In this document: one piece after another, positions 2,235 to 32,000 of the stretch
How the letters are laid out: every line of letters starts with the position of its first letter
Position numbering within the stretch: the first letter of the stretch is position 1
From: a virus
Direction: 5' to 3' (one strand)
Length of the DNA stretch: 38,248 nt
IMG/VR virus record: IMGVR_UViG_3300046543_000143
Span: 1 to 38,248 of that record
The notes under the pieces: generated by a model
Databases searched by the model: none
Seen by the model: the letters and a program-made list of their open reading frames with translations, nothing else
Told to the model about the DNA's origin: nothing
Program-made: the position numbers and the translations under genes

Positions 2235-2306
2235 GGGTGGTAGCAGAGGCTGCCAGTCGGATTCCAAATCCGCACCGAGGAGGTTCGATTCCTTCGCTGC
2301 CCGCCA
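2235..2306 (+). tRNA. tRNA-Trp (anticodon CCA), short D-arm
   Basis: The 72 bases fold as a tRNA. The acceptor is GGGTGGT/GCTGCCC with three G-T wobbles. The anticodon loop TTCCAAA (2262-2268) reads CCA (Trp). A 5-base variable loop follows, then the T-arm GGAGG-TTCGATT-CCTTC, discriminator G and an encoded CCA. The segment between acceptor and anticodon stem is only 15 bases, against the usual 19-20, so the D-arm is reduced (GCAG-AGG-CTGC). The anticodon stem has four clear pairs plus one mismatch. It could supply tryptophan tRNA during infection, or be the remnant or attachment-site copy of a host tRNA gene. Confidence 0.75.
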
Positions 2307-28055: not shown

Positions 28056-28107
28056 AAAAAAAGACCCCCTCGGGAACCCATTACGGGAACCTTGAGGGGG
28101 TCTTTTT
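28056..28107. terminator. strong bidirectional intrinsic terminator
   Basis: AAAAAGACCCCCTC (left) and GAGGGGGTCTTTTT (right) are perfect complements with a 22-base loop containing GGGAACCC. It has a T-run in both directions, and ends both the plus-strand late module and the minus-strand lipoprotein gene. Confidence 0.9.
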
Positions 28108-28111
28108 GACT

Positions 28112-28336
28112 TCAATTGTTGACGAGTGTGGCTCCGCAGGTCGTCGCGCAGAGCTTCAGGGACGAGTTGCACTGGAGCTTCTGGATCCCTGGGGTCAGAG
28201 GATTGGACGACAGGCACTCGTTGTAGGCGTCCGAGCAGTGCATGGAGCACGAGCGGTCGGCGTAGCGCCAGTCGAAGTCAGGGGTGCTGCAGCCTGCCAA
28301 GGTGACGGCGGCGATAAGTGTGAGGATTGTTTTCAT
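28112..28336 (-). CDS. cysteine-rich outer lipoprotein (74 aa)
   Basis: A classic lipoprotein signal peptide (MKTILTLIAAVTLAGC) with lipobox LAGC, C16 being the lipidated residue. The mature part has six further cysteines at 30, 34, 41, 56, 63 and 67, arranged symmetrically (C-x3-C-x6-C ... C-x6-C-x3-C), so three disulfides and a helical hairpin are likely. No domain was recognised. It stands between the plasmid-like origin and the terminator, in lysogen-type territory. A surface or exclusion function is plausible; an o-spanin role is less likely since no partner is seen. Confidence 0.75.
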   Translation of the reverse strand: MKTILTLIAAVTLAGCSTPDFDWRYADRSCSMHCSDAYNECLSSNPLTPGIQKLQCNSSLKLCATTCGATLVNN

Positions 28337-28378
28337 TTGTCTGAAGGTGCTGTTTTCTGAACACCTCGGAGGCCCAAA

Positions 28379-28398
28379 GTGTTCACTGGGATGAACAC
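28379..28398. repeat. 20-bp dyad of the iteron motif
   Basis: GTGTTCACTGGGATGAACAC: 7-base arms with a 6-base spacer. An inverted pair of an iteron is typical of the site where a Rep dimer binds. Confidence 0.7.
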
Positions 28399-28405
28399 CC
28401 CCGCC

Positions 28406-28414
28406 TGTGGATAA
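28406..28414 (-). promoter_or_regulatory. DnaA box 1
   Basis: TGTGGATAA, exact complement of the high-affinity consensus TTATCCACA. Confidence 0.75.
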
Positions 28415-28432
28415 GTAAACATCCGACGATTG

Positions 28433-28478
28433 GAAGTGTTCATTTTTTTGTGGATAACTACCCCGAAGTGTTCATTTT
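28433..28478. repeat. direct iterons GAAGTGTTCATTTT (two copies)
   Basis: Identical 14-base words at 28433-28446 and 28465-28478, 32 bases apart (about three helical turns), with a DnaA box between them. Confidence 0.75.
28449..28457 (-). promoter_or_regulatory. DnaA box 2
   Basis: Second exact TGTGGATAA, 43 bases from the first and lying between two direct iterons. Confidence 0.75.
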
Positions 28479-28515
28479 CGCGAAACACACTGTATACAAG
28501 AACTATCTATGTTAA

Positions 28516-29106
28516 CTATAAGAGCCGAGGCTGTTCGCCGTCGCTCGGTGGCGGCTGCTGGCTGTCCAAGAATCCCCGCTTCGGCACGTCGCTCGACGGG
28601 ATCTCGGCACGCAGCGTTCCGGCCTCCGCGTCCCAGGAGAATCCCGAGCCGGGGATGATCTCGCATTCGACGAAGGCCTTCGGGTCCGTCTTGCCGTTCA
28701 CCGCCTTCTCGATGGCCTGGATCTGCTCGGGCAGCTTGTCGGGCACGTAGTCGATGACGATGGTGCAGAGCACGCGAGACCCCAGACGGACGTCCATGCG
28801 CTCTCGTGCCACGTAGGCGTTCCCACGGCCCTTCTCGCCCCTGGTGACCCGCAGCAGCTTCTTGGCCTCGAGGACCTCGATGTACTTGCTGATGGCCCCT
28901 AGGGACGCCCCGGTCATCTCAGCGAGCCGACGGACGCCAGGCCAGCAGATGCCAGTCTCTCGGTCTGCGTGGGTCTTGATGGCGTTCCAGAGCATGAAGG
29001 CGTTGCCCCCGATCTCCGCAGCCAGCCCGGATTCGAACAGGTCCTGCTGCATCGTGTTGTACGAGGCGTCCAGCAGCTTCGGCTTCTTCGGTTCCTTGGC
29101 CATCAC
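28516..29106 (-). CDS. winged-helix plasmid replication-initiator-like protein (196 aa)
   Basis: Residues about 30-100 form a winged helix-turn-helix (NAFMLWNAIKTHADRETGIC, VRRLAEMTGASLGAISKYIE, VLEAKKLLRVTRG). This type is seen in plasmid replication or copy-control proteins of Gram-negative bacteria, often beside ParA. The C-terminal 50 residues are disordered and proline-rich. It is the last gene of a four-gene operon (parA, RHH, small gene, rep) and abuts an iteron/DnaA-box origin. It is shorter than most two-domain Rep proteins. A pure transcription regulator is the alternative. Confidence 0.65.
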   Translation of the reverse strand: MMAKEPKKPKLLDASYNTMQQDLFESGLAAEIGGNAFMLWNAIKTHADRETGICWPGVRRLAEMTGASLGAISKYIEVLEAKKLLRVTRGEKGRGNAYVARERMDVRLGSRVLCTIVIDYVPDKLPEQIQAIEKAVNGKTDPKAFVECEIIPGSGFSWDAEAGTLRAEIPSSDVPKRGFLDSQQPPPSDGEQPRLL

Positions 29107-29297
29107 CAGGCCCCCATGAGGCCACCAAGGACCTCCAGCTCCTCTCCGATCCAGTCCCGGTAGGAAGCGGCGTATCCCAGGGCCTTCTTCCGGTGGAACA
29201 GGCGGATCTCCTCGAGCAGGTTCTCCCGGGTCATCTCGATCAACTCCCGGTCGGCCAGCAGCCCTTCGTGCTCCCAGTGCGCAGCGTGTTCCATCAC
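29103..29297 (-). CDS. small hypothetical protein of the partition operon (64 aa)
   Basis: A 64-residue, strongly charged helical protein (RELIEMTRENLLEEIRLFHR). Its start overlaps the stop of the RHH gene and its stop overlaps the start of the rep-like gene. It has a His-rich N-terminus (MMEHAAHWEHEG). Unknown; possibly a copy-number or partition accessory factor. Confidence 0.7.
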   Translation of the reverse strand: MMEHAAHWEHEGLLADRELIEMTRENLLEEIRLFHRKKALGYAASYRDWIGEELEVLGGLMGAW

Positions 29298-29668
29298 ACC
29301 CTCCCCTTGTTGATCCGTGCGACCCGGCGGTCCACCTCAGGCCCCAGGCAGTCGACGATGATCTCGGTCATGGTCACGCCCTGCAGCCCCGCGAGGATCT
29401 TGAGCCGCCGATGGAGCTCCGTGGGGATCCTCAGATTCATCGGTTTCGTGTCGGCCTTTTTCGGGACGATCTCGACGATGGTGTCAAAGTAGTTCTGCAG
29501 TACCCCGTGCGGCTTGTCTACAGCCCCGCCAGCGGCCTCGTGAGGCTCCGGAGGCACTTGGGTAGCGGGTACGCCCTTCGTGACCTCCTGGCGCATCCTG
29601 GTGACCGCGGAATCGTCTGCGCTCCGTTCAGGCAGCGCGGGGCCTTTGATGTTGGGCCTTTCAGACAT
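29294..29668 (-). CDS. ribbon-helix-helix centromere-binding-like protein, ParB/ParG role (124 aa)
   Basis: A disordered N-terminal 70 residues precedes a ribbon-helix-helix domain (about 76-118: KPMNLRIPTELHRRLKILAG, VTMTEIIVDCLGPEV). Such proteins, encoded just after a short ParA as here, bind the centromere and repress the operon (ParG/Omega type) in type Ib partition systems. The start lies inside parA, with GAGGAG before it. The likely operator is the TGTAAAGA repeat upstream of parA. Confidence 0.75.
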   Translation of the reverse strand: MSERPNIKGPALPERSADDSAVTRMRQEVTKGVPATQVPPEPHEAAGGAVDKPHGVLQNYFDTIVEIVPKKADTKPMNLRIPTELHRRLKILAGLQGVTMTEIIVDCLGPEVDRRVARINKGRV

Positions 29669-30314
29669 TGAAAATCTCCTCGTAGAGGTTCGTCAGTTCC
29701 TCGGTGGCCCGCGGGTCCTTGCGCTTCAACTCCGTTACCGCCCTGCCCGTCTTCGACGAGTCCCGGAATGCCTGGCGGTTGAAGATTGTCTTCGAGACAG
29801 GCTTGAAGTAGTCCTTGAGGCCCTCGAGCATCTCCCTGGAGTCTTGGAGGTCCCTCTTCGCATTAGGAGGGACGCTGTTCAGGACCACAAGGATCCGCGT
29901 CTCCGGTCGCTCGGTCTTCAGTCGGTTGGCAATCAGGAGCATCGGCTCTAGGCCTGAGGTGTCGAACTGACCGATGCCCACGGGGATGACGATGACGTCC
30001 GCAGCCAGGCAAGCGTCCACCATCTCCACTCCCCTCCCTGCGGGCACGTCCACGATCACGACTTCGTATGCCTCTCGATGTGCGACCAGGTCGGCGTACA
30101 CCTTACCTTGGCCCATGGCTAGACTTACGTGCGGGAGGCTCTCCTCACTGCGCCGTGTGGTCCCCCACGCGTAGCTGTAGCGCCCCTTTTGGTTGTCGAT
30201 GTCGGTATCTACCAGCAGCACGCGATGTCCCTTCGAAGCGATCAGCCCCGCTAGGTTCGTCGACAGCGTGCTTTTTCCAACTCCCCCTTTCTCCGTTGCA
30301 ACCGCGATCAGCAT
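29661..30314 (-). CDS. parA: ParA-family partition ATPase (217 aa)
   Basis: A deviant Walker A motif EKGGVGKST (8-16) with the signature lysine, a switch DTDIDNQ (36-42) and Walker B-like VVIVDVPAG (85-93) identify a ParA/MinD ATPase. It is short and lacks an N-terminal helix-turn-helix, as in type Ib plasmid partition, where a separate small DNA-binding protein serves as partner. The start at 30314 is preceded by a perfect AAGGAGG; the longer frame is rejected. It would segregate the extrachromosomal prophage on the nucleoid. First gene of the par-rep operon. Confidence 0.92.
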   Translation of the reverse strand: MLIAVATEKGGVGKSTLSTNLAGLIASKGHRVLLVDTDIDNQKGRYSYAWGTTRRSEESLPHVSLAMGQGKVYADLVAHREAYEVVIVDVPAGRGVEMVDACLAADVIVIPVGIGQFDTSGLEPMLLIANRLKTERPETRILVVLNSVPPNAKRDLQDSREMLEGLKDYFKPVSKTIFNRQAFRDSSKTGRAVTELKRKDPRATEELTNLYEEIFNV

Positions 30315-30340
30315 GTGTCCTCCTTCCTTGGTGTCCAAAA

Positions 30341-30369
30341 ATCTTAGGTGATCACGTTCCGTGTGTAAA
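30341..30369 (-). promoter_or_regulatory. promoter of the par-rep operon
   Basis: Minus-strand -35 TTTACA (30364-30369, five of six bases) and -10 TAAGAT (30341-30346) with a 17-base spacer. The -35 lies inside the operator repeats, so the promoter is probably autoregulated. Confidence 0.7.
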
Positions 30370-30393
30370 GACATGTTTCTTTACATCTTTACA
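30364..30393. promoter_or_regulatory. TGTAAAGA operator/centromere candidate (three repeats)
   Basis: TGTAAAGA at 30364-30371 and its complement TCTTTACA at 30378-30385 and 30386-30393. The last two are directly adjacent, the first two are inverted with a 6-base gap. Clustered 8-base repeats are how ribbon-helix-helix partition proteins bind their operator and centromere. Confidence 0.65.
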
Positions 30394-31190: not shown

Positions 31191-32000
31191 TTACCGCACA
31201 GCCGCCAGCAGGTCCTCGTCCGAGATGTGGGCGTAGCGCATCGTCGTCTGTATCTTACGGTGTCCGAGGAGCTTCTGGACTACCGCGATGTTCCCAGTCC
31301 TCGACAGCGTCCGGGTTGCGGCGGTATGTCGCAGGGCGTGAAGGACGAAGTCGTCGTCCCCCTCGAGGCCCATAGCCACCTTCAGGCGCAGCCATACAGC
31401 CCGCAGTTTCCCCTCGTCCAGGGCGAAGGGCAGACCCTGGGCAATCGCATCCTGAGCGCGGACGCTGAGGGGCACCGAGCGGGGCTTCTTCGTCTTGTTG
31501 ACCCACAGCCGAACCCACGGTCCATCCACGTTCTTCTCCTCGAGGTTCAGGATCTCCGAGCGGCGCATTCCGGTGTCGATGGAGACCGTAAGGAACCTAG
31601 CGACCTCGGCCTCTCCCCAGGTGTCCAAGAGGGCGAACAGCTGAATTTCTTCGACTTCTGTCAACCAGCGGGTGCGTCCCTCCGTTTCTTCCTTCCATTC
31701 GAACTTCGGCATCTTGGCGATCCACTCGCGCTCGAAGCCGTACTTGAGGACCGTGTGGATGTTGGCCAGCTTGCGGTTGACCGTGGCGTCCGCGATGGTC
31801 CCTTGGACCTCCAGGATGAAGTCGTCGATGGTCGTAGTCCGGACGTCCTCGAGGGCCAGGTTGCCGACCACCTTGATGAACTGCTCGACGTTGCGGTAAG
31901 CGGTGAGTTCGTAGGCCTTTCCGCGCCACAGGGCCTTAGCGGCGATCCGAAGGAGTTCGTGGAGGTTCGTCGGTGCCTTCTGTTTGGCTGCGGTCTTCAT
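31191..32000 (-). CDS. tyrosine recombinase, integrase/Xer-like (269 aa)
   Basis: Catalyses site-specific DNA strand exchange. The C-terminal catalytic domain has R146 (TGMRRSEIL), a probable beta-lysine near K172, H221 and R224 (HALRHTAATR), H247 (GHRKIQTTMRYAH) and nucleophile Y256. The N-terminal core-binding domain is about 100 residues. It lacks the extra arm-binding domain of lambda-type integrases, so it is closer in size to Xer or plasmid resolvases. With par and rep genes nearby it may resolve multimers, integrate the phage, or both. Confidence 0.92.
   Translation of the reverse strand: MKTAAKQKAPTNLHELLRIAAKALWRGKAYELTAYRNVEQFIKVVGNLALEDVRTTTIDDFILEVQGTIADATVNRKLANIHTVLKYGFEREWIAKMPKFEWKEETEGRTRWLTEVEEIQLFALLDTWGEAEVARFLTVSIDTGMRRSEILNLEEKNVDGPWVRLWVNKTKKPRSVPLSVRAQDAIAQGLPFALDEGKLRAVWLRLKVAMGLEGDDDFVLHALRHTAATRTLSRTGNIAVVQKLLGHRKIQTTMRYAHISDEDLLAAVR

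Follow-up and report, generated by a model that had tools for sequence, protein, structure and literature searches.

In the 38,248-base IMG/VR virus record IMGVR_UViG_3300046543_000143 (positions 1 to 38,248, the whole stretch being hereafter called the window), the segment 28358-28523 is very probably a DnaA- and Rep-dependent theta origin, most likely serving the maintenance of a low-copy plasmid prophage. In the light of a comparison with 29 related viral contigs, a replication origin appears by far the best reading of the repeat array found there and, once an origin is granted, its use in plasmid-like lysogeny is likely, judging from the neighbouring partition (par) genes. In the mechanism proposed, (i) the winged-helix protein Rep (28516-29106) would bind five iteron-like GTGTTCA sites, (ii) DnaA would bind two boxes between the iterons, (iii) the AT-rich DNA at the stop codon of rep would melt and a replicative helicase would load, (iv) parA, the gene of a ribbon-helix-helix (RHH) protein, rep and the origin would form one maintenance cassette preserving the genome of the phage as a plasmid prophage of low copy number, and (v) in lytic growth, the T7-type polymerase, the primase-helicase and phage promoters would take over. 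That Rep reads the repeats is strongly supported by their co-exchange and by the type-specificity of the repeats, while the binding of DnaA is suggested by perfect boxes of conserved orientation, melting and helicase loading are modelled on plasmids and oriC, and we infer the lytic takeover by the T7-type machinery as well as a switch between the two modes. The features concerned are gathered in Table 1.

Table 1. Features of the putative origin, of the par-rep operon and of their surroundings in the window.
Feature	Position	Strand	Basis
Iteron-like repeat 1, GTGTTCA	28358..28364	-	sequence match
Iteron-like repeat 2, GTGTTCA	28379..28385	+	sequence match
Iteron-like repeat 3, GTGTTCA	28392..28398	-	sequence match
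Perfect DnaA box TTATCCACA	28406..28414	-	sequence match; conserved boxes in relatives
Iteron-like repeat 4, core of 14-bp direct repeat	28436..28442	+	repeat analysis
Perfect DnaA box TTATCCACA	28449..28457	-	sequence match; conserved boxes in relatives
Iteron-like repeat 5, 32 bp from repeat 4	28468..28474	+	repeat analysis
Candidate DNA-unwinding element, AT-rich, at rep stop codon	28484..28523	.	composition; AT-rich equivalents in relatives
rep, predicted winged-helix initiator, 195-196 aa (GTG 29106 or ATG 29103)	28516..29106	-	PHROG, Pfam, AF2 model
64-aa ORF, in exchanged cassette in some relatives	29103..29297	-	sequence comparison
Ribbon-helix-helix protein, candidate centromere-binding partner of ParA	29294..29668	-	profile matches
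parA, type Ib-like partition ATPase; likely true start Met about 30314	29661..30374	-	profile matches, relatives
Sigma70-like promoter, par-rep operon	30341..30369	-	consensus match only
TCTTTACA/TGTAAAGA octamers, three copies (30364, 30378, 30386), candidate RHH operator/centromere	30364..30393	.	repeat conservation
Tyrosine recombinase (integrase or dimer resolvase)	31191..32000	-	profile matches
74-aa lipoprotein-like gene, adjoins origin	28112..28336	-	weak LPAM_1 lipobox match
Bidirectional terminator-like 14-bp inverted repeat	28058..28107	.	repeat search; terminator-like site on minus strand

The repeat array

Five GTGTTCA heptamers (three on the plus and two on the minus strand) and two perfect DnaA boxes all lie inside 28358-28474, between the 3' end of the rep-like gene (stop 28516) and a small lipoprotein-like gene, which bears out the earlier note, where copies of GTGTTCA in both directions had been described as interleaved with two DnaA boxes. 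These two boxes are the only perfect ones in the whole 38-kb window, and both read TTATCCACA in the direction leading from rep to the lipoprotein gene. As was also first noticed there, the direct copies at 28436 and 28468 are 32 bp apart; they have 14 bp in common (GAAGTGTTCATTTT), and repeats 1 and 2 form a divergent pair, i.e., TGAACAC-N14-GTGTTCA. GTGTTCA is the only 7-mer reaching at least five copies per 158 bp anywhere in the window; in 200 first-order Markov simulations of the whole window, its largest cluster per 158 bp held two copies as against the five observed, and in 1000 simulations of the segment alone the maximum for any 7-mer was three copies. Simulated windows contained on average 0.1 DnaA boxes each, two together being present in none.

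The interval from the last iteron to the stop codon of rep is occupied by the most AT-rich 40-mer of the vicinity (at 28484, 72.5% AT), a value equalled by only 0.06% of the 40-mers of the window. An analysis of GC skew, which had been put forward as a check on the origin, proved uninformative, neither a minimum nor a maximum being consistently seen at the origin in five contigs, and gene direction acting as a confounder. No phage RNA polymerase (RNAP) promoter was found near the origin, the sole long repeat family being located at 1711-1917, upstream of the RNAP gene. Since the head-to-tail iterons of 17-22 bp typical of the classic form are absent, the repeats being 7-bp cores in both orientations with one 14-bp direct pair, the array would work like an iteron/DnaA-box theta origin without being a classic member of that class.

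The rep gene and its product

As rep is encoded on the minus strand and reads towards the array, the latter lies downstream of rep. This position, singled out in the earlier note as an uncommon order, is constant (29 of 29 relatives) and is not unique, the ori being downstream of rep in R1/IncFII and ColE2-type plasmids as well. Rep matches PHROG profiles for replication initiation, O-like and DnaD-like proteins as well as HTH_36 of Pfam, where nothing else scored above the cut-off, neither Rep_3 (PF01051) nor RepA_N (PF06970). The AlphaFold2 model, computed from a 14-sequence alignment, is composed of a winged helix, then a beta hairpin and then a less certain C-terminal domain, with a pLDDT of about 90 across residues 30-80. 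Upon comparison with the PDB using VIA-align, two of the three best scores went to 4pql (Z 9.1) and 4pt7 (Z 9.0), the annotations of which read 'DNA binding protein' and 'initiator', and 5kbj ('Rep-DNA complex') scored Z 8.1. Because unrelated winged helices reach Z 7-8, a Z of about 9 is only modestly higher, and the likeness of the modelled fold to 4pql, 4pt7 and 5kbj is a lead, not proof. Viral fold matches of the model include RepL, 'replication initiator' and lambda-O-like proteins. At the sequence level, Rep had no match in named phages (INPHARED; 50,697 phage records), nothing significant among solved structures and, among plasmids, weak matches confined to the HTH half; two profile scans of 84,980 bacterial genomes returned no relatives and thereby no host or lysogen.

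Conservation of boxes and repeats in relatives

Relatives L002-L006 were obtained from searches with Rep and ParA, and scans of viral contigs with a Rep-alignment profile then gave 23 and subsequently 29 loci; together with the window, the 260 bp downstream of rep were thus compared in 30 loci. These regions contain 41 perfect DnaA boxes, every one in the same orientation relative to rep, as against one in 243 kb of surrounding sequence from the same loci. At least one DnaA box is present in 28 of the 30 loci, a number to be read bearing in mind that near-identity is frequent among the loci and that the independent observations are hence nearer the number of types than 30. L027/L071 carry a one-mismatch box (TTATCAACA), and L028/L072, which are of E type and the most distant, have no strict box in the rep-downstream region. 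In most relatives, an AT-rich 30-mer is found near the rep stop.

The Rep types each go with a repeat of their own, namely (A) GTGTTCA in the window and L007-L010, (B) TAGCGTTAC/CGTTCGCTA, with two DnaA boxes, in L005, L006, L011-L017, and L029, (C) AACGCTA in L018-L021, (D) ACAGGTACGCTA in L022-L027, (E) GTAGTGA in L028, and (F) GCGTTCA in L049-L054. The TGAACAC-N14-GTGTTCA end pair, either lipoprotein-proximal or distal, occurs in all three distinct type A origins with unrelated N14 sequences; L009 and L010 keep the repeat 1-2 pair of the window with a different N14, and 16 aligned sites yield the pattern rAGTGTTCAw. The presence of host DnaA and a phage Rep side by side at an origin, as pictured in the earlier note, is strongly supported by evidence of this comparative kind.

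Exchange of rep together with its repeats

Loci L004, L005, and L006 have the backbone of the window, with nucleotide identities of 100, 86, and 83% for parA, 97, 90, and 81% for the RHH gene and 91, 90, and 91% for the lipoprotein gene, respectively, as against 59-68% for rep and 55, 35, and 35% for the iteron/DnaA region. In the replaced region of these loci, DnaA boxes and repeats are present again. The BLAST breakpoints, at 28343-28364 (L004, L006) and 29290-29292, coincide with the far ends of the repeat array, on one side, and of the block made of rep and the 64-aa ORF, on the other. Since identity falls jointly over rep and the repeat/DnaA region, with breakpoints at their edges, both were swapped as one cassette, the incoming one carrying its own repeats and DnaA boxes. 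In L002/L003, it is parA that has been replaced, along with the N-terminal portion of the RHH gene, the rep and origin region being 98.5% identical to the window. The iteron/DnaA region belongs with rep and not with parA, because the two are exchanged together and stay together when parA is swapped.

The replacement in L002/L003 concerns ParA together with the N-terminal tail of the RHH protein, the DNA-binding domain of which is unchanged, in what is apparently a domain-level exchange within the partition system. Of note, L006 bears between the RHH gene and rep an extra small ORF (1209-1433; 74 aa) unrelated to the 64-aa ORF.

Partition genes

The module is ordered as parA, the RHH gene, rep, the AT-rich stretch, then the iterons and DnaA boxes. 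The ParA of the window is small, devoid of an N-terminal HTH and followed by the RHH gene, as in type Ib systems, and the RHH protein has RHH/HicB-like profile matches. ParA is present in nearly all relative contigs long enough to show par genes, and that of the window is 26-31% identical to ParA of several phage-plasmids among P1, N15, SSU5, VP882, phiHAP-1, and KS14. Three TCTTTACA octamers, the only ones in the window, lie upstream of the likely parA start and overlap the sigma70-like promoter. Their layout, i.e., two in tandem and then one inverted, recurs in all examined loci that encode this RHH domain (L002-L006, L015-L017) and stays even where parA has been swapped; the other examined loci, which have other ParA types, are devoid of this triple repeat. 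As such, it is likely the RHH operator/centromere expected for a type Ib partition system.

Phage context

The right part of the window encodes on the minus strand PolA, a 5'-3' exonuclease, an HNH protein, the tyrosine recombinase, ParA, the RHH protein, the 64-aa ORF and the HTH_36 Rep; tail, portal, scaffold, terminase, and lysis genes are on the plus strand, and a T7-type RNAP gene of the minus strand extends past the left end. Phage structural genes hence co-occur with rep and par genes, as in phage-plasmids. The RNAP is a single-subunit enzyme of the T7 type (31-33% identity), as in Autographiviridae; the label of T7-like phage initially given to this DNA is apt for the RNAP and the replication genes, but the best matches of the portal, at about 30% identity, are Rembedalsseter/JB8 and 77-kb coliphages outside the T7 group. 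In the 43-kb contig behind L005/L029, a T7-type RNAP, a gp2.5-like SSB, an endonuclease, a gp4-like primase/helicase, PolA and an exonuclease are followed by the recombinase, ParA, RHH, Rep, origin, and lipoprotein. As a phage of this kind has its own lytic replication route, the presence of a DnaA origin next to par genes points above all to maintenance in plasmid mode. The ParA-Rep-origin module is also found in other phage types, e.g., in a contig whose portal is of the P22 type and which has a DnaB-like helicase.

The tyrosine recombinase of the window makes chromosomal integration possible. PF00589 recombinases occur in window-type phages, G002, and G004 and in none of the examined type C-F contigs, which are possibly incomplete. 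No lysogeny repressor was identified in the window.

Several other elements are worth recording. The lipoprotein-like protein is 94-97% identical in relatives with a swapped rep/origin. Beside the origin-lipoprotein unit, 28058-28107 is a perfect 14-bp inverted repeat flanked by A and T runs, located between the convergent late and replication operons and conserved in relatives. Upstream of the RNAP gene, TTAGTCGACACCGGTGTAGAG (palindromic core ACACCGGTGT) is present in three copies, two direct and one inverted, at 1711-1731, 1784-1804, and 1897-1917; at the same place in L034 (15318-15532) are three copies of AATTAGTCGACACGTACG, the left half of which is the same as in TTAGTCGACACCGGTGTAGAG and the right half different. 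This family could correspond to lysogeny-repressor operators or phage promoters. A tRNA-Trp gene (window 2235-2306) and a tRNA-Asn gene (L034 14935-15010), both upstream of the RNAP gene, are possible former attachment sites or translation helpers.

Alternative readings

The same site might be an origin for early lytic infection, in the manner of lambda O/ori, rather than for plasmid maintenance, parA and the RHH gene being otherwise employed. Such a role would fit the lambda-O-like profile matches of Rep, the location of the module at the end of the early/replication operon and the tyrosine recombinase, which suggests integrative lysogeny. It is nonetheless unlikely, considering that a phage such as the relative G021, in which a primase-helicase, a polymerase and an SSB of the T7 type are all encoded, would not need DnaA, that a par gene is coupled to the origin in nearly all sufficiently long contigs and that most non-window-type contigs are without a PF00589 recombinase. 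Chance clustering or functionless sequence decay, contradicted by the Markov simulations and by conservation in 29 related loci, is scarcely conceivable.

Considering its location in the par operon region and the ability of RHH proteins to bind short repeats in both orientations, the GTGTTCA array could be viewed as a partition centromere bound by the RHH protein, but this is highly improbable: L005/L006 keep the RHH gene (81-90% DNA identity) yet GTGTTCA is gone, and the DnaA boxes would be left unexplained. Moreover, because the RHH domain tracks TCTTTACA upstream of parA, even where parA is swapped, GTGTTCA was rejected as the RHH site. A role of the repeats in transcription, be it as an operator of the lipoprotein gene or in the autoregulation of rep, is very doubtful too, even though the array lies within 22-140 bp ahead of the start codon of the lipoprotein gene and winged-helix proteins are often repressors. 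In L009, L011, L018, L022, and L049, the array and DnaA boxes persist with no lipoprotein gene downstream, which argues against an operator of that gene; the array is not the rep promoter either, since rep is transcribed towards it, and a DnaA box of the same orientation in 28 of 30 loci would remain without explanation.

Comparison with known systems

Viewed as a DnaA- and Rep-dependent origin, the locus can be set beside several known replicons. The staphylococcal RepA_N initiators (pSK41/pTZ2162 RepA) and RepA of the Vibrio cholerae PLE satellite are winged-helix initiators binding repeats at their cognate ori. Presumably, 4pql and 5kbj belong to the same RepA_N family as 4PT7. The latter corresponds to the RepA of a staphylococcal plasmid and falls within the RepA_N family, and V. 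cholerae PLE RepA constitutes a precedent for such an initiator in a phage satellite (PMC7145576). Unlike the RepA_N systems, the window has repeats with 7-bp cores that run in either direction, are interspersed with DnaA boxes and come after rep. The theta origins of P1, F, pSC101, and R6K have in common with the window a near-helical repeat spacing, DnaA boxes, an AT-rich element and an adjacent initiator gene, but the initiator of the window is not of the Rep_3 type by Pfam, its repeats are short and not head-to-tail, and rep precedes ori. Like alphaproteobacterial repABC replicons, the window presents in a single operon a ParA-like, a centromere-binder-like and an initiator gene, then the origin; unlike them, it has an RHH protein for RepB and an HTH_36 initiator for RepC, and its origin is downstream of rep, whereas the repABC origin is inside the initiator gene.

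The association of phage structural genes, ParA and a replication module is shared with the phage-plasmids P1, N15, SSU5, VP882, phiHAP-1, and KS14, none of which, to our knowledge, has a T7-type RNAP; as far as we know, phage-plasmids with ParA relatives are all of other types than this phage. Like it, the temperate T7-like phages LUZ100, Pasto, and HTVC019P combine an RNAP and replication genes of the T7 type with a tyrosine recombinase and tRNA genes. These phages integrate or are suspected to (PMC10134795), and neither partition nor maintenance as a plasmid or episome is mentioned in the LUZ100 paper. In the open-access literature, no paper was found on a T7-type phage with ParA/iteron plasmid maintenance. 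Each part corresponds to a known kind of device, and the novelty resides in how they are combined, in a Rep family that is unlisted and in the turnover of rep and iterons as pairs.

Significance

Since parA and the RHH gene adjoin it, what was an origin in a phage becomes a plasmid maintenance module in a phage and, being also found in phages with other head genes, this module looks like a portable maintenance cassette. As a tentative generalisation, with an appreciable though not prevailing chance of being right, phages with a complete T7-type replisome would switch between plasmid lysogeny relying on DnaA/Rep and ParA/RHH and lytic replication relying on RNAP and primase-helicase, with Rep and iterons diversifying and being swapped as pairs, thereby creating incompatibility types in otherwise near-identical phages. 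The paired rep/iteron exchange constitutes a natural experiment on initiator/iteron specificity, where a single-base difference in the repeat core (GTGTTCA vs GCGTTCA) goes with defined changes in a winged helix of roughly 90 aa. A phage combining T7-type lytic replication genes with a plasmid-type origin and partition would represent a new lifestyle for that type of replication, and the module suggests that this phage may persist in its host as a plasmid besides being able to kill it.
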